Origin: a virus
DNA: 21,165 nucleotides
IMG/VR virus record: IMGVR_UViG_3300028590_000095
Span: 1 to 21,165 of that record
Strand: one strand, 5' to 3'
The position numbers and the translations under genes are program-made. Below are positions 19 to 20,241 of the stretch, piece by piece. Position 1 is the first letter of the stretch. Each line of letters opens with the position of its first letter. The notes beneath the pieces were generated by a model that worked only from the letters and a program-made list of their open reading frames with translations, was not told the DNA's origin and ran no database searches.

Positions 19-155
19 ATGACACGATGACATGACTGACGTGTCATTTCTAGGAAGCTCTACCAACTACGAAACACTACCTAAATCCTTATTAATATAT
101 ATTCTCTATTTCTAGATATAAGTTCAAAAGTAGTGTCATAGTGTCATTCTGTCAT
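19..155. other. Candidate replication origin / master regulatory region (AT-rich core between TGTCAT clusters)
   Basis: The only large non-coding stretch in the window is 1-290. Bases 61-130 hold 18 G/C of 70, and 81-120 only 7 of 40, against roughly 70% in the neighbouring genes. On the left are ATGACA at 19 and 27 and TGTCAT at 42. ATGACACG at 19-26 and CGTGTCAT at 40-47 form a perfect 8-bp inverted repeat. On the right are three TGTCAT copies at 134, 142 and 150, exactly 8 bp apart. ATTTCTAG occurs twice (46-53 and 108-115). Short iterated sites beside an easily melted AT-rich block, directly upstream of a primase-helicase gene, are the classic layout of an iteron-type origin. A multi-site operator controlling the replication arm is the main alternative. 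Bases 156-290 hold no gene I can support. Weak TATAAT-like strings lie in the AT-rich block (for example 117-122), without a good -35. Confidence 0.5.
132..155. repeat. Three tandem 8-bp repeats containing TGTCAT
   Basis: Read as 8-bp units, the sequence is TAGTGTCA, TAGTGTCA, TTCTGTCA, followed by T. The first two units are identical and the third differs at two positions. The 8-bp period is shared with the inverted-orientation pair ATGACA at 19 and 27. Such phasing suits cooperative protein binding. No protein is identified, although the adjacent primase-helicase is the natural candidate. Confidence 0.6.
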
Positions 156-290
156 GTAGCAAGAAGCGTGCCAGAGCAATGCGGGCCAACTGGAACGGCT
201 ATCGGAGCTGCGCGGCGATAGCGGATTTCAATGTGCAACGGTGCGAAACTGGTAGGAGAATACTCACACATCTAAAGAAAGCCGCGAACC

Positions 291-2768
291 TTGACCGACA
301 TTCGATTTACCCAAATCACGTCGCACTCGTGCGACCTCACGAAACGCTTCGCCCTCGACGAACATGGAAGGGTTACCAGCAGCGCCATTGCGCACATGAC
401 CGAAGGCGAGGCGCGCGTGCTGCACATCGAGGACGTGTCGCACATCGACTCGGCGCTGCGCAACCTCACGCCCAATCAGGCCATCACCTGCGGCCTGCCG
501 CGCGCCGGCGATTCGACCCTGACGACCCGAGCGCGGGCCGACTTCAATCCGCGCGCCGTAGCGCGCACGAACGCGACGTTCGACTGGTCCCCCGGTGCGA
601 CGCTGTGCCCGATCGACGTGGACGTCGACACCGGCGGCTTCACGTCGCTGGACGCCGCGCTCGATGCGCTCGAGGCCTGCCATCCTTGGCTCGCGCACGT
701 CACGCGCATCGCGCGCCCCTCGTCGTCCTCCTATGTCGGCGACCGCGGGCTGCGCGGCGTGCACGTCTACTTTGCCGTCACGCGCGGCACGGACATTCCC
801 GCGCTGGCCGTGCGCATGCAGGCCGAGGAATGGCTGGCCGGGCGCGGCTTCGTGAAAATCTCGAAGTCCGGCGCGCTGCTGGTGCGCCAGCTCTCGGACT
901 CGCTGGTCTATCAGCCCTCGCGCCTGATGTTCGAGGCCGAGCCTGTGTGCAGTGAGGACGTACCGCGCAACATCCCGGACGGCGGGCGCGTGCTGGTGCG
1001 CGCCGAGCGCCCCAAGGGCGCGCCGCTGCGCGCACGCTCCCCCGAGGGGCTGCTCGACGTGGGCCTGCTCACGCCGCTGCGCGAGATCGACATGCGCCGC
1101 TTCGAGACGATGAAGCGCCAAGCCCGGGACGGCCGCCGGCGCGAGGCGAAGAAGATAGCGATCAACTATCAGCGCGAAAACGCCATAGCGAACGGACTGG
1201 AGCTCGCAGACGGCGAGCGCCTGGGCCTGATCGCGACGCGCGCACTGGGCGACAAGAAGCTGCCGGCCACCTGGGAGCTCGCCATCAAGGACATCGGCCG
1301 GCAGACGGTGCAGCAGATCGTTGACGCGCTGCCGCACTCGCTCGGGCACAACTGCGCGGACCCGTTCGACACGTGGAATCCGAACCTCGAGCCCAAACAT
1401 TTCGACAAGGCCGAGATCGTCATGATGGGCGACCGGCCCGGCGTCTGGTCGCACAAACTGCAGGAATTCTTCGAGTTCACCGACGACCGCGCGGCCGACC
1501 TCGACTCGCCGCTGTCCCTAGCTGCCGAGAAGCTGTGCGGCCTGGTCGAATACCCCGAGCCCGCCGGCAAGAAGGCCGCGCCGCTCGTGAACATCACGCA
1601 CGGCCTGTCCGTGCTGCTCACCGAGCTGGACGCACTGCCCACGTACAACGCCAGCACGATGACGATGGACCGTGCCGACGTGCCCGACCCGGGCGACCTG
1701 CTCGACGCCCTGTCGCGCATCGGCTGCCACAACGTCACGAAGAAGCCCATCGAGGACGCCATCGAGACGCTCGCGCACCGCCGCACGACCGACCCGTGGC
1801 GCGACGCTGTGCTCGCGCTGCCCAAGTGGGATGACGTGCCGCGGTTGGACAACTTTTTTCCCGAGCTGTGCGGCGCGCTGCCCTCCGAGGCGCTCATGCT
1901 CTCGACGCAGCTGTTCTTCGCGGGCGTGCTGATGCGCCAGATCCGCCCCGGGGCGCCGTGCCCCGTGGTGCCGGTGCTGATCGGTCAGGGCGGCCTGGGC
2001 AAGGGCGTCTTCGTGGCTGACCTCGCGAAGGCCCTGGGCGTGCCGCCGCCGGCGTCGCTGAAGTTCGCGGACGAAATTCGCATGACCATGGCCGCCAGCG
2101 TGAGCGCCATCGCCGAGCTGGGCGAGATGTCGGGCATGGCCAAACGCGACGTCGAGGACATCAAGCAATGGACGACCGAGTGCCAGGACGTGTACCGCGC
2201 GCCCTATGAGCGCCGCGCATCCGAGCACCCGCGCCGCTTCGCGCTCATCGGCACGGCCAACAAGCACGAGATGAACCGCGACGAGACCGGGAACCGCCGG
2301 TTGATGCCCGTGGATGTACTGCGCCCGATCGAGCAGGCCTGGGCCGGCGAGGCGCGCCAAATCTTCGCAGAGGCCAAGGCGCGCTTCGTGGACGACGAGG
2401 CAGCCTATCTGCGCCTCGTGCGCGCCGCGGCCGACGCCGTGTTTGCGTTCAACCAGGCGCAGATGCGTGACGGCATCGGCGTGCCGGTGTCGGATGTCGA
2501 TGACGTGCTGCCCGACCTGCTGCGCAAACTGCTGCGCCAACACTCGCAGCTCGGGTTCGTGCCCAGCTCGGCCGTGCGCCTCGCGCTCGATGCGAGCCCC
2601 AGCGGCAAGACCATTCGCACCCGTGAGTACACCCGCTGGCTCACGACCCGGGGCTGGCAACCCGCTCGCACGATGGACGCCCGAGGCTGGAAGCCACCAG
2701 AGGGCTACGAGGTGCCGGGCGAGTCGAACGTCATTCCGCTAAGTCCCTTTGCCAAGGTCGGGAATTGA
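291..2768 (+). CDS. VapE-type primase-helicase (replication initiator-like), 825 aa
   Basis: Likely primes and unwinds DNA at the phage origin. The C-terminal half is a VapE/VirE-family P-loop ATPase. It has Walker A GQGGLGKG (565-572), a Walker B-like IAELGEM (607-613), and the family signature GTANKHEMNRDETGNRR (654-670), which resembles the sensor/arginine region of SF3-like helicases. The N-terminal part (about 100-220) has an acidic DVDVD (109-113), GVHVYF (156-161) and KISKSGALLVRQ (189-200), as in archaeo-eukaryotic primase (AEP)-type domains fused to VapE; this domain is inferred. The start is a TTG at 291, with purine-rich AAAGAAAG about 10 bases upstream. An in-frame ATG at 396 is the alternative, but it would lose coding-like N-terminal residues. 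The gene lies just right of the origin-like region and is the first of the rightward replication arm. P4 alpha protein is a known example of primase and helicase in one initiator. Confidence 0.85.
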   Translation: MTDIRFTQITSHSCDLTKRFALDEHGRVTSSAIAHMTEGEARVLHIEDVSHIDSALRNLTPNQAITCGLPRAGDSTLTTRARADFNPRAVARTNATFDWSPGATLCPIDVDVDTGGFTSLDAALDALEACHPWLAHVTRIARPSSSSYVGDRGLRGVHVYFAVTRGTDIPALAVRMQAEEWLAGRGFVKISKSGALLVRQLSDSLVYQPSRLMFEAEPVCSEDVPRNIPDGGRVLVRAERPKGAPLRARSPEGLLDVGLLTPLREIDMRRFETMKRQARDGRRREAKKIAINYQRENAIANGLELADGERLGLIATRALGDKKLPATWELAIKDIGRQTVQQIVDALPHSLGHNCADPFDTWNPNLEPKHFDKAEIVMMGDRPGVWSHKLQEFFEFTDDRAADLDSPLSLAAEKLCGLVEYPEPAGKKAAPLVNITHGLSVLLTELDALPTYNASTMTMDRADVPDPGDLLDALSRIGCHNVTKKPIEDAIETLAHRRTTDPWRDAVLALPKWDDVPRLDNFFPELCGALPSEALMLSTQLFFAGVLMRQIRPGAPCPVVPVLIGQGGLGKGVFVADLAKALGVPPPASLKFADEIRMTMAASVSAIAELGEMSGMAKRDVEDIKQWTTECQDVYRAPYERRASEHPRRFALIGTANKHEMNRDETGNRRLMPVDVLRPIEQAWAGEARQIFAEAKARFVDDEAAYLRLVRAAADAVFAFNQAQMRDGIGVPVSDVDDVLPDLLRKLLRQHSQLGFVPSSAVRLALDASPSGKTIRTREYTRWLTTRGWQPARTMDARGWKPPEGYEVPGESNVIPLSPFAKVGN

Positions 2769-3165: not shown

Positions 3166-3672
3166 ATGACCACCATAACCACCGAAACCCCGTACTTCAC
3201 GGTCGAGCAGGCCAGCCGCTGGCTCACCTGCGCGCAACCGATCCCTCTACCGCTGCTGCAGCGCCTGGGCAAGGACTGCTCTATGGTCTGCCGCATCCGC
3301 GGGGCCACGTTCGTCGACGTGCCCGTGCAAGGCAAGTCCTGGCCCACCGAGCGCGGCTACCCGGCCGCGATCATTCAGGAGGTGTTTCTGGCCAACCCGG
3401 ACACGCGGCCGTTCCTCCCTGGCGCCGCGCCCGCGCCGGCACCTGCACCCACTCTGACGAAACCGACGACCACAGTCTGGGTGCTTACGCGCGAGATCAA
3501 CGCCTACGAACAGGAAGGGGCGTATTTTGTCGCGGTATGGGCGACGAAACCCACGCTGGATGACCTGCAGCAGGTTGGCGTACCGGTCATCAAGGCACCG
3601 GCCGTACTCGGTGGCGGTGGTCGAGCAGGCGAGGAATCCGAGTGGTTCAATCTGACGGAGCTGGCGGCGTGA
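3166..3672 (+). CDS. Hypothetical phage protein, two segments joined by a Pro-Ala linker
   Basis: 168 residues, not assigned to a named family. An N-terminal segment (about 8-80) contains TPYFTVEQASRWL and ends near YPAAIIQEVF. A low-complexity linker, APAPAPAP, lies at about 88-95. A C-terminal segment (102-168) contains VWVLTREINAYEQEGAYFVAVW and ends SEWFNLTELAA. That segment looks like a small compact domain found alone in other phages (inference). No clear Shine-Dalgarno sequence precedes the ATG, and coupling to the gene 7 bp upstream is likely. Its stop overlaps the GTG of the next gene. Confidence 0.7.
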   Translation: MTTITTETPYFTVEQASRWLTCAQPIPLPLLQRLGKDCSMVCRIRGATFVDVPVQGKSWPTERGYPAAIIQEVFLANPDTRPFLPGAAPAPAPAPTLTKPTTTVWVLTREINAYEQEGAYFVAVWATKPTLDDLQQVGVPVIKAPAVLGGGGRAGEESEWFNLTELAA

Positions 3673-3824: not shown

Positions 3825-4015
3825 TCGCCGCGCAACAGGGTCACCGTTACCTCTGGTGCGGCGTGGACGAGGTGCTGGCGCTCGAGTCGGGCCAGCGCGT
3901 GCGCGTCGCGGTGCTCGAGCGCGACCAGCCCTGGCTCGGCGCACGGTACGTGCTCGATGCGGCCGACCTGACGCCGCTGCCGATGGCGTATTTCCATGGC
4001 GAGGTACCGCGATGA
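3821..4015 (+). CDS. Small hypothetical protein, 64 aa
   Basis: The ATG at 3821 sits in an ATGA overlap with the preceding gene. A longer reading from 3701 is possible but would cover the upstream gene. The sequence looks like a small beta-rich fold (RYLWCGVDEVLALESGQRVR, then VAVLERD and ARYVLDAADLTPLPM). It is unrecognised. The gene stop overlaps the next ATG, so it sits inside a chain of three coupled junctions. Confidence 0.6.
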   Translation: MIAAQQGHRYLWCGVDEVLALESGQRVRVAVLERDQPWLGARYVLDAADLTPLPMAYFHGEVPR

Positions 4016-9082: not shown

Positions 9083-9352
9083 ATGACCGAAACCCTCGAT
9101 TTCACCTCCTGCCCGCTGGAGCAGCTGAGCGTGAAAGACCTCACGGACGCGCTCGGCATCGCCGAGTCGGCCGCGCTGCTGAACACCAGCGCCCGGGCTA
9201 TCTACACGGTGCGCAACACCAGCGCGCTGTCGGCCGACCGCATGCTGCAGCTCATCGCCGCGGTGCGCGCCGACGAAGTGAACTGCCGCCGCCGACTCGT
9301 CGTGACGCGCCGCCTGCAGGCCGAGCGCGAGCGCCGGGCCACGCCCGCCTGA
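9083..9352 (+). CDS. Small protein with helix-turn-helix-like segment, 89 aa
   Basis: Residues 16-60 (SVKDLTDALGIAESAALLNT followed by SARAIYTVRNTSALSADRML) resemble a small DNA-binding helix-turn-helix of the Cro/XRE kind: a helix with LGIAES, then a turn and NTSARAIYTVRN as possible recognition helix. The C-terminal tail is strongly basic (CRRRLVVTRRLQAERERR). GGAA precedes the ATG by about 5 bases. It is the first gene after a promoter, a common position for a regulator. Family membership was not confirmed, so the regulator call is tentative. Confidence 0.6.
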   Translation: MTETLDFTSCPLEQLSVKDLTDALGIAESAALLNTSARAIYTVRNTSALSADRMLQLIAAVRADEVNCRRRLVVTRRLQAERERRATPA

Positions 9353-13944: not shown

Positions 13945-16098
13945 TCACTTCCAGCGCCCGATCATCAGGAGCCGTACGGCGTAGGTTTGTGCGACAGACG
14001 CGTTAATCCGAACGTCAACGCCAGTAGCATTACCGGTGGTCAGGGTAGTGACAGCGCTCAATCGATCCACGGTGTAGGTGTTCGTACCGGGGAGACTCAC
14101 GCTGCCAATCGAAGCGGCCACGCTCATGTCACCCACCCACAGCACGTTTGAAGAAAATGCCAACTGAAACAACTGTTCTGTGCCTGGCGTCGTGTGCGCG
14201 CAAGGGAACGAATATGCCGCGATTGCGGTGCCATCGTCGAATTTTGTCTGCCCCACAGTGCCTGGGTAATACCGTGAAGTGTCAACAAAGCGCCCCCCGC
14301 TCGACTCGTTGCGCTGGACCGGTGTGTAAACATCGGTAATGGTCGCTGTCGCCCCGCTGGTGCCGCCAGTGACAGTCTGCGCAGCGGTAAACGTGCCCAC
14401 GATAGTGGTCGGAAACATCAGCGCCGTACCTGAAAGTCCGGTGACGCGTCGGGTTAGCGTCGCGCTGCCTGTGCCCGTCGATATCGCCTCGCCTTCAACG
14501 AATGTGCCCACGACCGTGCTAACTTTCAGCGCCTTGGCGCCGAATTCGCTACTCTTCACATTGGCGCAATAGACCTGCGTGACCGATGCATTGAGATTGT
14601 ATTGTGCGGAAAGTTTAAATACGCTATTGGAAACGCGGACGTCTACAGACCCGTCAGAGAAACTGCCGCCAGCAATACCCGCGTAAGACACGTTTGCGTT
14701 ATTGATCGCAACGTCCTTCGAGCTTGCAGCTACGCTAATACCCATCCCGAGACAACCGTCAACAACGAGGTTGTTGACCACAGATCCGCTTGCGGGGTAT
14801 CCCGGATGACCCATGTTCAAACCGTGATTGGCTCGGGTATTGGTGGCAACGATGTTCGAGGCCACGCCGTTTATCATGTCGAAGCCCACCGCAGACGCAC
14901 CAGCATAATCCACGACGGCCCACAGGAGCTCGCCGTACATCCCGCTCATTTGGATGCCGGAATATTCGGTGGCGTAAAGGCCCTGTGCCCCTGCGGCGCC
15001 GCGAGCGTAGTCGCAGAGGCGCAATTGGACGCCTTCACGACCCCAACCCCGCAAGCGGCTCACTTGCACATCAGCGCGCAAGCATTGATATGCGAAGACC
15101 GCGCCCGTGGACGTATCTCGAATTCCATCTGGCGAAGGCATCAGCGCACCGGAAGCAATGTAATGATCGTGCGCATAGGCGACACGAACAAAAGCGTCCG
15201 GGCAGTTGGTCAAATAATTCAGGTGGGTGCCGATGTTTCCCGACTGGCCCGCATAATTGCCGTCGAAATTCTGCACGATGATCCGCACACGAGATTTGCC
15301 AGCAGCGTAAATGCAGCGGTCGAAATCTGAACATCCGTCAGGGAGTTTCAAACCTCCATAAACCGTAACTTCCGTGTCGTTTTGGGCTTCGACGTTCTTC
15401 ATCACCAAGACAAAACCTTGCGGCACGGTGAATCGGTTGTGCGCAGCGATTGCAGCAATTGCAGCAGAGCTATTGTCCGCAAAGAGACTGCCCGTGATGA
15501 ACCATAGGATATTTACATCGCCGACAAATACCCGCGTCCACGCGCCAATCCCGGACACGTGTGCGAATTGCGTCCCGCCGTTGGTGGTATTTGGCAGGGT
15601 GGCGTCGTAGCGAAACGGTCCAGCGATGCCTGGTGCCGTAATCTGCAAATCGAGAAACCCGGTGTAGGCCAGCAGCGCGGTGTAGTTTTGGAGCGTCTTG
15701 ACTCGACTGTCTAGCGCGACCTGTACGGTACCCTCGGCACCCGCACCAACCTTGGTGGCGCCATCGGGGGCTGCGAGTACCGCTGCCCAGGCGACGCCAT
15801 CAAACGCCACTACCGTCTGCGTGTCGCGCACGTAGGCAGTCCAGCCCCCCTGCGGCGGCATGTAGACCCACGCCCCGTTGTCGCGCGCTGCAATCTGGTT
15901 CGCGTTCGCGTCGCCCACGGGCACGATGTAGATCACGCCATTGAGCGGCGAGGCGGGCAGCGATGTGGTGGCCGACTCGACGGCCAGCTGTGTGAGCACT
16001 GACGACTTGAGCCAGTTCTGGTCGCCGCCGACCTTCCAGGGAGCGCCCTGATCCCAGTAGCCCGTGAGCCCGATACCGGGAAGAATGCGTTCGGTCAT
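13945..16098 (-). CDS. Tailspike / receptor-binding protein with DUF2793-like anchor
   Basis: 717 residues. Residues 1-108 look like a DUF2793 anchor (WDQGAPWKVGGDQNWLK, PLNGVIYIVP, GGWTAYV, VVAFDGVAWAAV). A long Asn/Gly/Val-rich part (about 190-520) with short beta repeats follows, suggesting a right-handed parallel beta-helix as in spikes that bind or cut surface polysaccharide. Two VGTF repeats lie at about 525-590 (VVGTFVEGEAISTGTGSATL; IVGTFTAAQTVTGGTSGATA). The C-terminal end is a beta knob. GAAGGA is about 5 bases upstream of the ATG. Base composition falls sharply inside the gene: a 60-base row is 70% G+C in the anchor but 43% in the helix-coding part. No catalytic residues could be assigned, so enzymatic activity is only possible. 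Confidence 0.78.
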   Translation of the reverse strand: MTERILPGIGLTGYWDQGAPWKVGGDQNWLKSSVLTQLAVESATTSLPASPLNGVIYIVPVGDANANQIAARDNGAWVYMPPQGGWTAYVRDTQTVVAFDGVAWAAVLAAPDGATKVGAGAEGTVQVALDSRVKTLQNYTALLAYTGFLDLQITAPGIAGPFRYDATLPNTTNGGTQFAHVSGIGAWTRVFVGDVNILWFITGSLFADNSSAAIAAIAAHNRFTVPQGFVLVMKNVEAQNDTEVTVYGGLKLPDGCSDFDRCIYAAGKSRVRIIVQNFDGNYAGQSGNIGTHLNYLTNCPDAFVRVAYAHDHYIASGALMPSPDGIRDTSTGAVFAYQCLRADVQVSRLRGWGREGVQLRLCDYARGAAGAQGLYATEYSGIQMSGMYGELLWAVVDYAGASAVGFDMINGVASNIVATNTRANHGLNMGHPGYPASGSVVNNLVVDGCLGMGISVAASSKDVAINNANVSYAGIAGGSFSDGSVDVRVSNSVFKLSAQYNLNASVTQVYCANVKSSEFGAKALKVSTVVGTFVEGEAISTGTGSATLTRRVTGLSGTALMFPTTIVGTFTAAQTVTGGTSGATATITDVYTPVQRNESSGGRFVDTSRYYPGTVGQTKFDDGTAIAAYSFPCAHTTPGTEQLFQLAFSSNVLWVGDMSVAASIGSVSLPGTNTYTVDRLSAVTTLTTGNATGVDVRINASVAQTYAVRLLMIGRWK

Positions 16099-16150
16099 TG
16101 TTGTCCTTCATCGCTCGCGCGCACGCGCGGCCGGCGCCATTTTGCCACGC

Positions 16151-16699
16151 CTAGGGCGTGTCGGGCCACATGTCCACAGGCGGTTCGACGTGCACTTCGA
16201 CGGCGCTGAAGAAGTCTTGCGGCAGCGTGACAACTTGGTTCACCTGGGCGAACAGACGCAGCATGAAGCGCTGCTCGTACAGGTTCTCGCTGTTTGCGAT
16301 GTTGAGCTGTGCAGGCTCATCGGCGTAGAGTGGCGTGATGGCCGCGCCTTCGAGCTGATCGCAACCCCACAGGGAGCGCCAGGCGATGGCGATGATGTCG
16401 GCCACGTCCGCCCCGAGCTGGCCGTAGCAGTCCACCTGGTAGCTGTAGGTCGTGTGCCGCGCGACGTTCACGACGCCCACGAGGGGGTCCTGGGTGTCGC
16501 GCGTGTAGGTGCGTCGCCCCTGGTCCTGGCGCTGCTTGACGCCGGGCGACAGCACGACGTAGTTGCCCGTCGCGGTTGCTGTCGTGTTCTGGAAGCCCTT
16601 GAACACCTGGCCCGCCGGTAGCTGATCCGTAACAAGCGCGACAATCCACGCCCATAGGGCGTCGAATACGACGTCTTCGCTGTGCAGGAGAGTGGCCAT
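16151..16699 (-). CDS. Neck terminator-like protein (gp12-like)
   Basis: 182 residues. It has the look of a tail-terminator or neck protein: a helical start (ALWAWIVALVTDQLPAG), then NYVVLSPGVKQRQDQGRR, YSYQVDCYGQLGADVADIIA and EQRFMLRLFAQVN. The last of these is usual in LIC_12616/gp12-type neck proteins. It would cap the tail tube where it meets the head. The ATG at 16699 overlaps the previous stop (TGATG); longer reading to 16834 is out of frame with real upstream coding. It is followed by a 52-bp gap and then the tailspike. Confidence 0.65.
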   Translation of the reverse strand: MATLLHSEDVVFDALWAWIVALVTDQLPAGQVFKGFQNTTATATGNYVVLSPGVKQRQDQGRRTYTRDTQDPLVGVVNVARHTTYSYQVDCYGQLGADVADIIAIAWRSLWGCDQLEGAAITPLYADEPAQLNIANSENLYEQRFMLRLFAQVNQVVTLPQDFFSAVEVHVEPPVDMWPDTP

Positions 16700-17139: not shown

Positions 17140-17618
17140 CACGCAGCCCCTTCGTCCCGCACCACCTCAGAATCGATCGACTTGAGCAGGTGCGAGGTCT
17201 GGATGAGGCCGTGATTGAAGCCCTTCACGCCGGCCCATTCCTTCGAGTTGTCGGCGGGCCAGTCCGTGATCGTCTTCATGATGTCTTCCTTCATGACCTG
17301 GCCCAGAATGCCCGCGATCTGCTCGGGCGAGTGGCCGGCCTGGAAGAGCTTCACCGCACCCTCGGTCCACTCCTTGCGGCGCTCGGCGACGGTCTTCTGC
17401 ATGAACGGCCGTGGGTGATTCTGACCCACCCCGTACTCGAGCACGGCAGCGATGGACGCTACCGGCATGCCGGCACGCGGGTCCGGGTACTCGCGGCCCG
17501 TGCGCGCGTCGCGGATCGTGTCGGCAGGGTAGGTCGCGCCGGCCAACACACCCGCCTTGACCGTCGCGGACGACATGTCTCGGTCGGGCATCTGCAGGCC
17601 GCGTCGCGTGACGGTCAT
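17139..17618 (-). CDS. HK97 gp10-like neck / tail-completion protein
   Basis: 159 residues. LEYGVGQNHPRPFMQKTVAE, followed by RRKEW, is the typical signature of gp10-like or tail-completion proteins: a Gly-containing loop, an HPRPFM, and a helix. Such proteins bridge connector and tail. The ATG at 17618 overlaps the connector stop (ATGA), and the gene's own stop overlaps the next start. It is a compact chain of coupled neck genes. Confidence 0.75.
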   Translation of the reverse strand: MTVTRRGLQMPDRDMSSATVKAGVLAGATYPADTIRDARTGREYPDPRAGMPVASIAAVLEYGVGQNHPRPFMQKTVAERRKEWTEGAVKLFQAGHSPEQIAGILGQVMKEDIMKTITDWPADNSKEWAGVKGFNHGLIQTSHLLKSIDSEVVRDEGAA

Positions 17619-18085
17619 GGCGTGATGACGCCGGCGGGCACGTTGAACGGTGCTGCGCGGAAGTTGCGCGCGTCGCCCAGGCCGCTGTCACCGGCCACGA
17701 AGTATTTCATGCTGCGGAACTGCGCGGTCATCATCCAGTACAGCGCGCCGTACTTGGTCTGGTTAAACCATGCAGCCATCGCAGAGCCCGCAGGGAGCTC
17801 GTAGGCGAAGCCCACCGACACCGACCCCTCGGTGGCCGTGTCGACGCGCCCCACAGGCCGTTCCGAGCCATCTGCGGCCACTGCGAACAGCGTGAGCAGG
17901 TGCGCGACGAGCAGGTAGAACAGCTGCGTGCGATAGTCCAGGGCCATCACTGGCGAGTTGTCGGTGTTGTCCAGGATCGCCTGCGCGGCCATGGTGAACA
18001 TGACTGTGCAGCGCGCGTCGCTGATCGCCGCGAACTCGGGATAGGCGGCCTTGAAGTCCGCCGGGACGAAGACGACGATGGCCAT
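17615..18085 (-). CDS. DUF4054-like head-tail connector protein
   Basis: 156 residues. FVPADFKAAYPEFAAISDAR at the N-terminus, a helical middle (QLFYLLVAHLLTLFAVAADG), and TATEGSVSVGFAYELPAG are typical of DUF4054 head-tail connector/adaptor proteins, which sit on the portal ring. Only a weak Shine-Dalgarno precedes the ATG. The gene starts 12 bp after the previous stop, and its stop overlaps the gp10-like gene. Confidence 0.78.
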   Translation of the reverse strand: MAIVVFVPADFKAAYPEFAAISDARCTVMFTMAAQAILDNTDNSPVMALDYRTQLFYLLVAHLLTLFAVAADGSERPVGRVDTATEGSVSVGFAYELPAGSAMAAWFNQTKYGALYWMMTAQFRSMKYFVAGDSGLGDARNFRAAPFNVPAGVITP

Positions 18086-18097
18086 GGTGGCTCGTGC

Positions 18098-18415
18098 TTA
18101 GTCGGCAGCGGCCTTCGGGTCGACGGGCTCGAAACCGGCCTTCACGGCCTGGCGGTCCTCGGCCTTGTCGACGGCGCTTTCCTTGTCACCCATTGCGAAG
18201 ACCACCTCGTTTTTGAGCCACGCCGCGTCGGCGTACTTGTCCTCGACGAGGGCCCAGGCCGCGGCCTTCACGTCGGTCATGCCGTGACCCATGAGCGCGA
18301 AGGGCGACAGGGCGCCGTTCAGCACGAGGGGCGGGCCTTCGGGCACCGGGATCGACAGACCTTGCGGCAGCTTGCAGGCGATGGTAAGCATGTCGGCGGA
18401 ACGTTTGCGGGCCAT
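18098..18415 (-). CDS. Small conserved phage protein in the head-neck region, 105 aa
   Basis: Opens MARKRSADMLTIACKLPQGL and ends RQAVKAGFEPVDPKAAAD. The CKLPxGL start and GFEPxDP end form a pattern I associate with a small phage protein found near connector genes; its function is not known to me. A clear GGAG lies about 7 bases before the ATG. A weak extended -10 (TGC GATACA, minus strand, about 18466-18458) lies upstream of it. The 65-bp gap before it shares a leader with the small gene at 19114 (see findings). Confidence 0.65.
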   Translation of the reverse strand: MARKRSADMLTIACKLPQGLSIPVPEGPPLVLNGALSPFALMGHGMTDVKAAAWALVEDKYADAAWLKNEVVFAMGDKESAVDKAEDRQAVKAGFEPVDPKAAAD

Positions 18416-18480
18416 GGAATTCTCCGGTTGTTGGTGGGTGAAGGCGTAGCGGCCTAGTGTATCGCAGAGTTAAGCGGGCG

Positions 18481-18681
18481 TCACCAACCTCGCGGCAGGC
18501 CGTGCCGCTGGATGTATTCGAGCCATCCGCGCTCAACGGCCTGCGCGAGCCGGCCGCGGCCCGCGACGTCGTTTCGCAGCGGCCACCGACGCGCCGCGCG
18601 CATTAGCTGGCGATGGATGATGCGCTGCAGCTCGGCCAGTGCAGGTACAGGCTTGCGTTTGCGGAGTTGGCGGACTTTCAC
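18481..18681 (-). CDS. Small basic hypothetical protein, 66 aa
   Basis: Starts at a GTG (18681) in a GTGA overlap with the preceding gene. The product is very basic (KVRQLRKRKPVPALAELQRI, then RQLMRAARRWPLRNDV), with pI expected well above neutral, so nucleic acid contact is possible. It is the third gene of a three-gene coupled set just below the capsid terminator. Not recognised. Confidence 0.5.
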   Translation of the reverse strand: MKVRQLRKRKPVPALAELQRIIHRQLMRAARRWPLRNDVAGRGRLAQAVERGWLEYIQRHGLPRGW

Positions 18682-18905
18682 GACCGCAACCCTGCGAGCA
18701 CCAGGTCGCCGAAGTCATCCACCACGGCCGGGCCGCCCGGCTCGGCGCCGATGAAGATGACGTGCCACGTCGCACCAGGTTCCGCGTAATTCAGGCGCCA
18801 CCACATGGCGAGGTCGTTGTGTGCACTACCGTCCGGCTCGTGCCGCGTCCGTGTCGCAAAGTGCGCACGCAGGAAGTCGTCGGTGTCGATGGTGACGGGA
18901 TTCAT
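18678..18905 (-). CDS. Small acidic hypothetical protein, 75 aa
   Basis: The ATG at 18905 is in an ATGA overlap with the preceding gene. The sequence is acidic and aromatic (MNPVTIDTDDFLRAHFATRT; AMWWRLNYAEPGATWHVIFI), compatible with a small alpha/beta fold. Not recognised. It is flanked by a basic neighbour of similar size; a small two-part pair cannot be excluded but has no direct support. Confidence 0.55.
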   Translation of the reverse strand: MNPVTIDTDDFLRAHFATRTRHEPDGSAHNDLAMWWRLNYAEPGATWHVIFIGAEPGGPAVVDDFGDLVLAGLRS

Positions 18906-19114
18906 CGCGCAACCCTCCCTGCGACGCGCTGTTGGTTCAGCCAGAAATCGCGCTCGCCGCGCAGCATCTGGCCGACAGGCGTCGACGCCGCGAAGCCCTT
19001 GATCGTGCTGTTCAGGTTGCGCAGTTCGTCAGCCGCCCACTCGATCCCGTGGCGCTCGAATGCTGCGCGCCCTTCCTTGATTCCATCGATGTAGTGAGGT
19101 GAAACTTCGATCAT
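18902..19114 (-). CDS. Small phage protein, 70 aa
   Basis: The ATG at 19114, with GGAG 7 bases upstream, is preferred over the longer reading to 19171, which would run through the promoter. The C-terminal part, IKGFAASTPVGQMLRGERDF, followed by WLNQQR, resembles small proteins common in tailed phages, function unknown. The leading part is helical (DGIKEGRAAFERHGIEWAAD). It is the first gene after the near-consensus promoter at 19140-19167 and is coupled by ATGA to the next gene. Confidence 0.65.
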   Translation of the reverse strand: MIEVSPHYIDGIKEGRAAFERHGIEWAADELRNLNSTIKGFAASTPVGQMLRGERDFWLNQQRVAGRVAR

Positions 19115-19139
19115 GCTGCGCTCCGGTTGGTGTGCGTGA

Positions 19140-19167
19140 AGTATAGCGAACCTTTCAGTAATGTCAA
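19140..19167 (-). promoter_or_regulatory. Near-consensus sigma70 promoter for the genes from 19114 leftward
   Basis: On the minus strand TTGACA (19167-19162; perfect), a 16-bp spacer and TATACT (19145-19140; 5 of 6). It lies just past the terminator of the capsid gene, so transcription of the small genes and neck genes is restarted rather than carried through. Confidence 0.8.
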
Positions 19168-19180
19168 ACAACGGGCAAAG

Positions 19181-19207
19181 AAAAGCCCCGCACAGTGGCG
19201 GGGCTTT
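19181..19207 (-). terminator. Intrinsic terminator after the major capsid gene
   Basis: AAAGCCCCGC (19182-19191), 6-nt loop, GCGGGGCTTT (19198-19207): a perfect 10-bp stem. Leftward it is followed by TTTTCTTTG, as expected for the minus-strand transcript. It begins 27 bases after the capsid stop. Confidence 0.85.
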
Positions 19208-19233
19208 CCTGTTTCACGTGGAACGCTTTCGCG

Positions 19234-20241
19234 TCACACGCCGAGCTGCTGCGTGCAGCAAACGGGTCGCCACACGATTGCGCCCCAAGTTCCGGCCGAC
19301 TTCTTCTGGCGGAAGTAGCTCGAGTAGCGCTCGATGGCGTGTGCGCGCATCTTCTCGGTGAAGCCGCAGGTGGCCGAGTCCTGACCCTCCAGGCGCGGCA
19401 CCCACAGCTGCACGAGGCGCCCGCCGGCGGTGTCGTACTCGGGCACGGTCACGATGCGCATCTTGGGGAAGGCATCGAGCAGCAGCTTCGCGGCCGACAG
19501 ACCATAGCTGTTCACCGTGTTCAGGTCGCCCGAGGCGGTCGGGGGCATCGACAGGACCATCTCCATGTCCTGCTCGACCAGGCCCTGCGTCTGCGTCTGC
19601 AGCGCCTTGAACATGTCCTTCACGGAGTTGAAGATGGCTTCCGGCGTGCCCGAGGCCCAGTTCGTGCCGGCGGCGACCGGCGCCGGCAGGCGCGGGTCGT
19701 TCGTGAGGCCGTAGTTCTGCAGGCCCGCCACACCGAACAGGTACGACGAGTTCAGGAACTTCGACAGGCCCAGGGCCGATGCGTAGTTCAGCTGTGCGGC
19801 CAGATCGACGCGGCCGGCGCCGGCCATTTCCAGCTCGCGCTCGCCCCAACGGGTCCACGTCTGGAAGTGGTAGCTCTGGCGCTGCGGGTAGTTCACGTTC
19901 GAACCGCTGGAGCCGTCCGCCGAGTAGTCGCCGTAGGTGGCGACTTCGGTGGTCGGTTCAGCCTGGATGAACGCAGCCGTCAGCGTGGTCCAGTCGCCCT
20001 TCTTCGACTCGCCGACGATCTCGGCGGCCTTCATCGGGGCGACGAGCACCTCGATGACCTTCGGGTCGACGTAGGTCGTCAGGTACGCCGGGATGCCGGC
20101 ATTGGGCGTGCCGACCAGCGTGGGCGTGAGGTCCGCCGCGTCCATGGCGAACTGGGCCAGGGGCGTCGTGACATTCTTCACGCCGGGCGCCAGGATCACA
20201 CCCTTGGCAGCCAGCTGTGCGATGACTTGGGAATCGCGCAT
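19234..20241 (-). CDS. Major capsid protein (DUF2184-like)
   Basis: 335 residues. Forms the icosahedral head shell. Features typical of the DUF2184 capsid family are present: an early PKVIEVLVAPMKAAEIVGES (spike/E-loop region), the central QTWTRWGERELEMAGAGRVD, and a C-terminal core ending MRAHAIERYSSYFRQKKSAG, then TWGAIVWRP. AAGGAG lies about 9 bases before the ATG. It sits after the cement and DUF2213-like genes, in the order known for this kind of head module. No scaffold or cleavage site is evident within the protein. Confidence 0.85.
   Translation of the reverse strand: MRDSQVIAQLAAKGVILAPGVKNVTTPLAQFAMDAADLTPTLVGTPNAGIPAYLTTYVDPKVIEVLVAPMKAAEIVGESKKGDWTTLTAAFIQAEPTTEVATYGDYSADGSSGSNVNYPQRQSYHFQTWTRWGERELEMAGAGRVDLAAQLNYASALGLSKFLNSSYLFGVAGLQNYGLTNDPRLPAPVAAGTNWASGTPEAIFNSVKDMFKALQTQTQGLVEQDMEMVLSMPPTASGDLNTVNSYGLSAAKLLLDAFPKMRIVTVPEYDTAGGRLVQLWVPRLEGQDSATCGFTEKMRAHAIERYSSYFRQKKSAGTWGAIVWRPVCCTQQLGV

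Follow-up and report, generated by a model that had tools for sequence, protein, structure and literature searches.

The DNA considered here, hereafter the window, is the whole 21,165-base stretch of a virus record, which is a fragment and not a whole genome. It is a 21-kb piece of a Naesvirus-like (Bcep781-related) phage, with a gene content (helicase, PolA, sheath, capsid) agreeing with that of Bcep781, and since it carries its own capsid, tail, portal and polymerase genes, it does not belong to a satellite genome of the P4 type. At its left end two arms of short repeats (iterons) flank an AT-rich core and are followed by the gene of a VapE-type primase-helicase (Table 1). This conserved module extends to about position 174, and on the left the contig end truncates the module or lies close to its edge. 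The copy beside the primase gene is designated M1, and a second copy found elsewhere in related genomes is designated M2. In the IMG/VR contigs L010 and L011, the left-arm position retains ATGACAnnATGACTGACA, and the right arm is kept in these two contigs and in the M2 copies of contigs L092, L106 and L113.

The dyad between the module and the primase gene is also present in Bcep1, L003 (about 2880–2910) and L004 and takes the compensating form CTATCA..TGATAG in Bcep781; it is possibly an operator for some regulator. A further GATAG box lies close to the leftward gene. The conserved block next to the primase gene is probably its leader or promoter, and a scan of positions 1–700 of the window found no consensus sigma-70 promoter.

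Table 1. Elements of the module and the adjoining primase-helicase gene in the window.
Feature	Positions	Strand	Remarks
Left iteron arm	19–47	–	ATGACA (TGTCAT on the minus strand) at 19–24 and 27–32; TGTCAT on the plus strand at 42–47
AT-rich core, candidate unwinding element	60–131		15% G+C over the best 40 bases; 22% over 72–131
Right iteron arm	134–155	+	TGTCAT at 134, 142 and 150, spaced by 8 bp; opposite in orientation to the copies at 19 and 27
Conserved right edge of the module	156–174	+	AGCAAGnnnCGTGCCA; common to the M1 and M2 copies of the clade
Dyad	199–221		CTATCG-N11-CGATAG
Conserved block upstream of the primase gene	226–269	+	TTTCAATGTGCAACGGTGCG..GGTAGGA.AATRCTCACAC
VapE-type primase-helicase	291–2768	+	825 aa; TTG start, conserved in L010 and L011; assigned to phrog_16593 'DNA primase'
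Part coding for the C-terminal winged helix	2496–2693	+	aa 736–801, predicted; proposed iteron-reading domain

Six of the seven TGTCAT copies (either strand) in the window fall within 19–155, the remaining one being at 4012. The total is at the level expected by chance (7 vs 6.6), and therefore the clustering, and not the number, is the signal. Among 500 dinucleotide shuffles of positions 1–300, the maximum for a hexamer was 4 copies against the observed 6 (p ≤ 0.002), in agreement with the original prediction of a TGTCAT cluster here. The AT-rich block proved to be somewhat stronger than had been claimed (18% G+C over 40 bases and 26% over 70): the core has 15% over 40 bases, 24% over 70 and 29%, the window minimum, over 100, whereas the lowest values elsewhere in the window are 33%, 43% and 45–46%, respectively, and the whole window has 66%. 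The 8-bp period, said to be shared by the two groups of repeats, holds within each of them (19/27 and 134/142/150), but the groups are out of phase, with 107 bases between 27 and 134; in close relatives, the spacing is 8 and then 7. Several features of an iteron origin are present at this site, namely tandem short repeats far above chance, an adjoining AT-rich region and a neighbouring conserved gene of a candidate initiator.

The assignment of this gene to the VapE type stood up to closer analysis. A VapE-like ATPase domain was recognised (PF05272, E 2e-39), the VapE/SF3 helicase occupying aa 512–710, and the residues D109, D111, H158 and D203 of the N-terminal motifs are invariant; the N-terminus is called AEP-like on the basis of these motifs and of marginal fold matches. 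The closest homologues are those of L010 and L011 (88–90% identity), followed by the primases of Bcep781, Bcep1, Bcep43 and BcepNY3 (59%) and of Xanthomonas phages (about 50%). The best solved relative is PriRep1 with dsDNA (7PDS; E 2.5e-35 by profile and 1e-11 by fold). A winged helix is predicted at the C-terminus (mean pLDDT of the model 77, about 73–84 in this region), and judging by the motifs, the VapE domain and this prediction, the protein is a fused primase-helicase with a C-terminal winged helix, as in the P4 type. The Walker A motif is GQGGLGKG (aa 565–572) with an invariant Lys571. The residue after this lysine is Gly instead of the usual Ser/Thr in the window, L010, L011 and some Xanthomonas phages, and in KPhi1 the motif is degenerate.

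Comparison of the initiator candidates gave some indications of how the word might be read. Arginines R778 (in the predicted recognition helix) and R793 (in the wing) are invariant in proteins of the TGTCA type and missing from three close relatives with other words, and their possible link to the iteron word is a lead rather than proof. In an exploratory Mantel test with iteron words assigned by eye, partial p was 0.02 for the helicase domain, 0.006 for aa 701–745 and 0.165 for the winged helix, i.e., iteron similarity in this test tracks the helicase domain and aa 701–745 rather than clearly the winged helix, whose correlation did not survive correction. The winged helix of L033 resembles the type found in the window. 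The VapE tails of L033 and L032 (about 18 residues, ENRPLLSVVSPFTTERTA) are near-identical in spite of 59% overall identity of the proteins, which suggests recombination within the 3' end of the gene.

Throughout the family, the homologous gene is preceded by the same arrangement of repeats, AT core and inverted repeats, and the word itself varies with the lineage. Thus, the expected conservation of TGTCAT upstream of VapE genes was borne out for the layout, but not for the word: the conserved feature is the arrangement. Repeats around an AT core were found upstream of VapE in L010, L011, L019, L033, Bcep1, Bcep781 and BcepNY3, and in most relatives with other words; the AT core was found in all relatives examined. 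In L010 and L011, the AT core is preserved between a single ATGACA (left) and three TGTCAT copies (right), and Bcep1 and Bcep781 carry seven TCTGTCA in each module. Other words are GGTGGGAT (L017), TACGGA (L021), GTACTGAC (L022), ACTGAC (L023), GTACAGAC (L025), TTAACAAC (L026), ACAGAGGC (L029), CCTTACTG (L031) and ACAGACGA (L032). For most relatives, none of 500 shuffles attained the observed k-mer counts, with weaker results for L031 and L023; because the shuffled regions of relatives were picked by eye, whole-genome counts are the fairer check. By these counts, 14 of the 15 copies of TCTGTCA in Bcep781, all 12 of GGTGGGA in G001 and 8 of the 13 of CAGACGA in G009 lie inside the modules. Even in Shewanella phage SFCi1, whose homologue is 26% identical, nine of the 16 copies of GGTGCAC in the entire genome were located in the 270 bases upstream.

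Three Xanthomonas lineages showed no significant short direct repeats, and the AT core with partly inverted arms is present in them. PhiXhv-28 is an exception with a local duplication in the module; its M1 contains a perfect 127-bp tandem duplication of a module part (L038 29305–29558). The statistic of inverted-arm coverage gave 421 inverted vs 169 direct matches overall, with many single loci lacking significance, and Bcep1 performed worse in it because of the extra repeats in its core.

The original prediction of one compact origin had to be abandoned, since the genomes of relatives carry a pair of near-identical modules. When complete genomes were analysed by sliding windows and compared with themselves, a second module emerged in 12 of the 13 near-complete relatives, at a distance of 16–21 kb from the first on genomes of 45–49 kb; in the most divergent relative, G008, only a single module was found. 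The two copies are usually 94–99.5% identical: 98% over 265 bp in Bcep781, 99.5% over 197 bp in KPhi1 and over 195 bp in PhiXhv-28, 97% over 431 bp in G003, 98% over 170 bp in G009, 94% in G005, 97% in G006, G007 and G011, and 98% in G016. The presence of two modules was checked in Bcep781, Bcep1 and BcepNY3. The second copy of XapPhi5, at the record ends, was considered as a possible assembly overlap, and this was settled by XapPhi4, which has two copies of 273 bp with 99.3% identity. In G001, what the modules have in common is limited to the iterons, the layout of the core and about 50 bp (ATCCCACCATCCCACC - AT - GGTGGGATAGGTGGGAT); their divergence in other respects suggests that selection acts on the word.

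The window is a fragment, and for its clade the presence of two sites of the same organisation, as in SPP1, is seen through complementary contigs. Scanning of viral contigs for a triple-TGTCAT pattern gave 54 matches, of which 5 were Naesvirus-like, and all 5 coincided with M1 or M2. Longer tandem arrays of TGTCAT octamers occur in the unrelated viral contigs L139 (3734–3827) and L125 (13314–13359). The M2 copies of the clade lie on L092, L106 and L113, between the baseplate gene and terS. L106 shares its sample with L011, and L113 with L010; from the shared sample and the gene complement we infer that L010 with L113, and L011 with L106, are halves of one genome each. M1 of L010 is 94% identical to M2 of L113, and M1 of L011 is 97% identical to M2 of L106, whereas copies at the same place are 71% (M1 of L010 and L011) and 76% (M2 of L113 and L106) identical. 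Copies within a sample are thus closer to each other than same-place copies of sister genomes, which indicates concerted evolution. The left end of the window at M1 is what would be expected if the assembly broke at the repeat, and the same is true for several relatives. The ends of contigs, and even of records labelled 'complete', fall at the module or within it (window position 1, L034 position 1, the end of L087, both ends of L039), which a duplicated, assembly-breaking sequence would be expected to cause.

Two gene orders were found around the modules. Arrangement A (baseplate/M1/primase and terS/M2/exonuclease) is characteristic of Bcep781, Xanthomonas phages, G005–G008, G011 and G016, and arrangement B (exonuclease/M1/primase and baseplate/M2/terS) of G001, G003 and G009; the clade of the window has the order of B. 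Arrangement B is A with the inter-module segment inverted, which had been foreseen from the inverted copies of KPhi1 before the gene maps were computed. The primase tree implies two or more switches of the arrangement, on branches with good support. Cultured Ralstonia phage PQ43W also reads as arrangement B in its published gene table, where the exonuclease lies on the minus strand at 15,458–16,654 and the primase on the plus strand at 17,393–19,876 (PMC11324598). All four transcription arms diverge from the two modules, which also delimit the recurrent genome inversion. In A and B, nearly all genes are directed outward from the modules, M1 is next to the primase gene in every case, and M2 adjoins the terminase gene. 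A common GCGYTACACT box precedes leftward genes in L113 (about 3270–3570), L106 and L092, and 36 identical bases accompany it at gp19 and gp51 of Bcep781 (L037 16068–16106 and 36450–36488); this box lies outside the iteron module and may be a late promoter.

In our opinion, the modules are probably paired iteron origins of the SPP1 oriL/oriR type, used with a fused primase-helicase similar to those of P4 and SaPI, and this is the best reading of the data. Inverted iterons around an AT core beside a self-loading primase-helicase have the appearance of an origin read by its initiator. Since the word turns over in both modules together, a shared trans-acting binder is the best explanation, and VapE is the natural candidate.

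The modules might instead control transcription, the repeats serving as operators or activator sites and the core as an UP element or curved promoter DNA. We consider this unlikely, and it stays alive because the modules occupy divergent intergenic regions; in every genome both lie between divergent arms, where such control would be expected. The duplication would be explained by the four arms diverging from two points and needing the same early/late control. However, the arms served vary (early/early, late/late or early/late) with the module unchanged, and the repeats face each other across a melting-type core of 70–120 bp, unlike an operator beside one promoter. Promoter-like boxes do occur near the module, e.g., TTGACA-17-TACAGT beside both copies of PhiXhv-28, and the annotators of phiXaf18 placed promoters on either side, but these boxes are at or outside the shared module edge, and the same layout accompanies primase genes down to 26% identity. 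The binder could be a conserved small HTH-like protein (phrog_17223) instead of VapE. The phrog_17223 protein (89 aa, window 9083–9352) is present in nearly all relatives and is possibly a regulator; no Pfam domain matched it, so that 'HTH-like' is a by-eye reading of its sequence.

Less probable still, and in our estimation improbable, is that one module is the active origin and the other an accessory site required in cis: a counterpart of P4 crr, for example, or a barrier to forks that switches replication to concatemers (as in the model for SPP1 oriR), or a packaging-linked site. The constant neighbours of M1 (primase) and M2 (terS/terminase) in both arrangements would suit such a division, as would the DUF2800 nuclease, gp2.5-like annealing protein and RusA encoded by these phages and the proposal that gp38 bound to oriR triggers the replication switch in SPP1 (PMC3485210). 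Against this, the copies are near identical, and no specialisation is seen in their sequences, the exception being G001, whose M1 is richer in iterons than its M2. That the repeats arose by chance in an AT-rich spacer, or that they reflect faulty assembly, can practically be dismissed: short words are weak evidence by themselves and contigs often end at modules, but the recurrence is statistically supported in many independent lineages, the duplicates occur in the finished records of the cultured phages Bcep781, Bcep1 and BcepNY3, and the copies in G001 have a diverged core.

Returning to the paired origins, we infer binding, melting, initiation and the use of two sites as follows. Positions 19–174 of the window would be one copy (M1) of a replication-origin module, in which short inverted iterons flank an AT-rich unwinding element. 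VapE primase-helicase would bind the iterons via its C-terminal winged helix, form an SF3-type hexamer on each side, melt the AT core and prime DNA synthesis there. The sequence-matched M2, at the distant terminase end of the genome, would depend on the same protein. M1 and M2 would be kept alike by gene conversion or recombination, and the initiator and the word would change together over time. Forks from M1 and M2 would run in the direction of all four transcription arms. The GC-skew check proposed in the original prediction lent no support to the origin position: no turn at the modules was detected, the mean outward skew being –0.011 with 11 of the 40 arms positive, in a weak test, since gene direction interferes with it and lytic phages often give no signal. 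No experiments on binding or initiation in the Naesvirus-like family were found in the literature searched.

A more far-reaching version, which we put forward tentatively and with more doubt than belief, is that two near-identical origins co-evolve with one primase-helicase, are homogenised by recombination and act as paired inversion endpoints, giving interchangeable genome isomers. If forks and transcription both leave the two sites, inversion keeps every gene co-directional. The family would offer an explanation for the two genome arrangements among Naesvirus relatives and a natural series on the change of an initiator word, with about a dozen words, every one paired with its own protein and occurring at two sites per genome. 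Small fragments of about 160–270 bp are directly testable as phage origins.

Among known systems, Bcep781, Bcep1, Bcep43 and BcepNY3 have the same gene set, the same module architecture and the related word TCTGTCA, but they belong to arrangement A, unlike the clade of the window. In P4, ori and crr are formed by short iterons near an AT-rich core and a second cis region with the same words. P4 is similar to the phages considered here in the fused primase-helicase, the iterons by an AT core and the second site with the same words; the differences are that here we deal with a full lytic phage and not a satellite, another word, a VapE/AEP-type protein and near-identical modules. The fusion of helicase and primase is documented for the P4 alpha protein (PMC7145576). 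SaPI Rep and SCCmec Cch2 read iterons by their C-terminal domain (PMC7581432), and SaPI Rep/Pri, PriRep1 (PDB 7PDS) and Cch2 are self-loading helicases of the same fold family; however, the SaPI and Cch2 origins are single and located downstream of the gene, and their iterons do not form a duplicated inverted pair.

The P4-like layout initially suggested is only a part of the picture, and the closest match in layout is SPP1 oriL/oriR rather than P4 alone (PMC6316719). In SPP1, two origins, each with direct repeats and an AT-rich DUE, are bound by one initiator, gp38 (PMC6316719). The likeness extends to two separate sites with repeats and AT-rich DNA per lytic phage genome of about 45 kb (PMC6316719, PMC3485210) and to the availability of a nuclease, an annealing protein and a Holliday resolvase for recombination-dependent replication. 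At the same time, SPP1 employs gp38, the loader gp39, the DnaB-type gp40 and host DnaG, whereas the initiator candidate here is a single primase-helicase of the VapE/SF3 type and not of the gp38/gp39/gp40 type. Finally, oriL is situated inside gene 38, and the SPP1 origins are about 13 kb apart, while the modules described here are intergenic, near-identical and separated by 16–21 kb.
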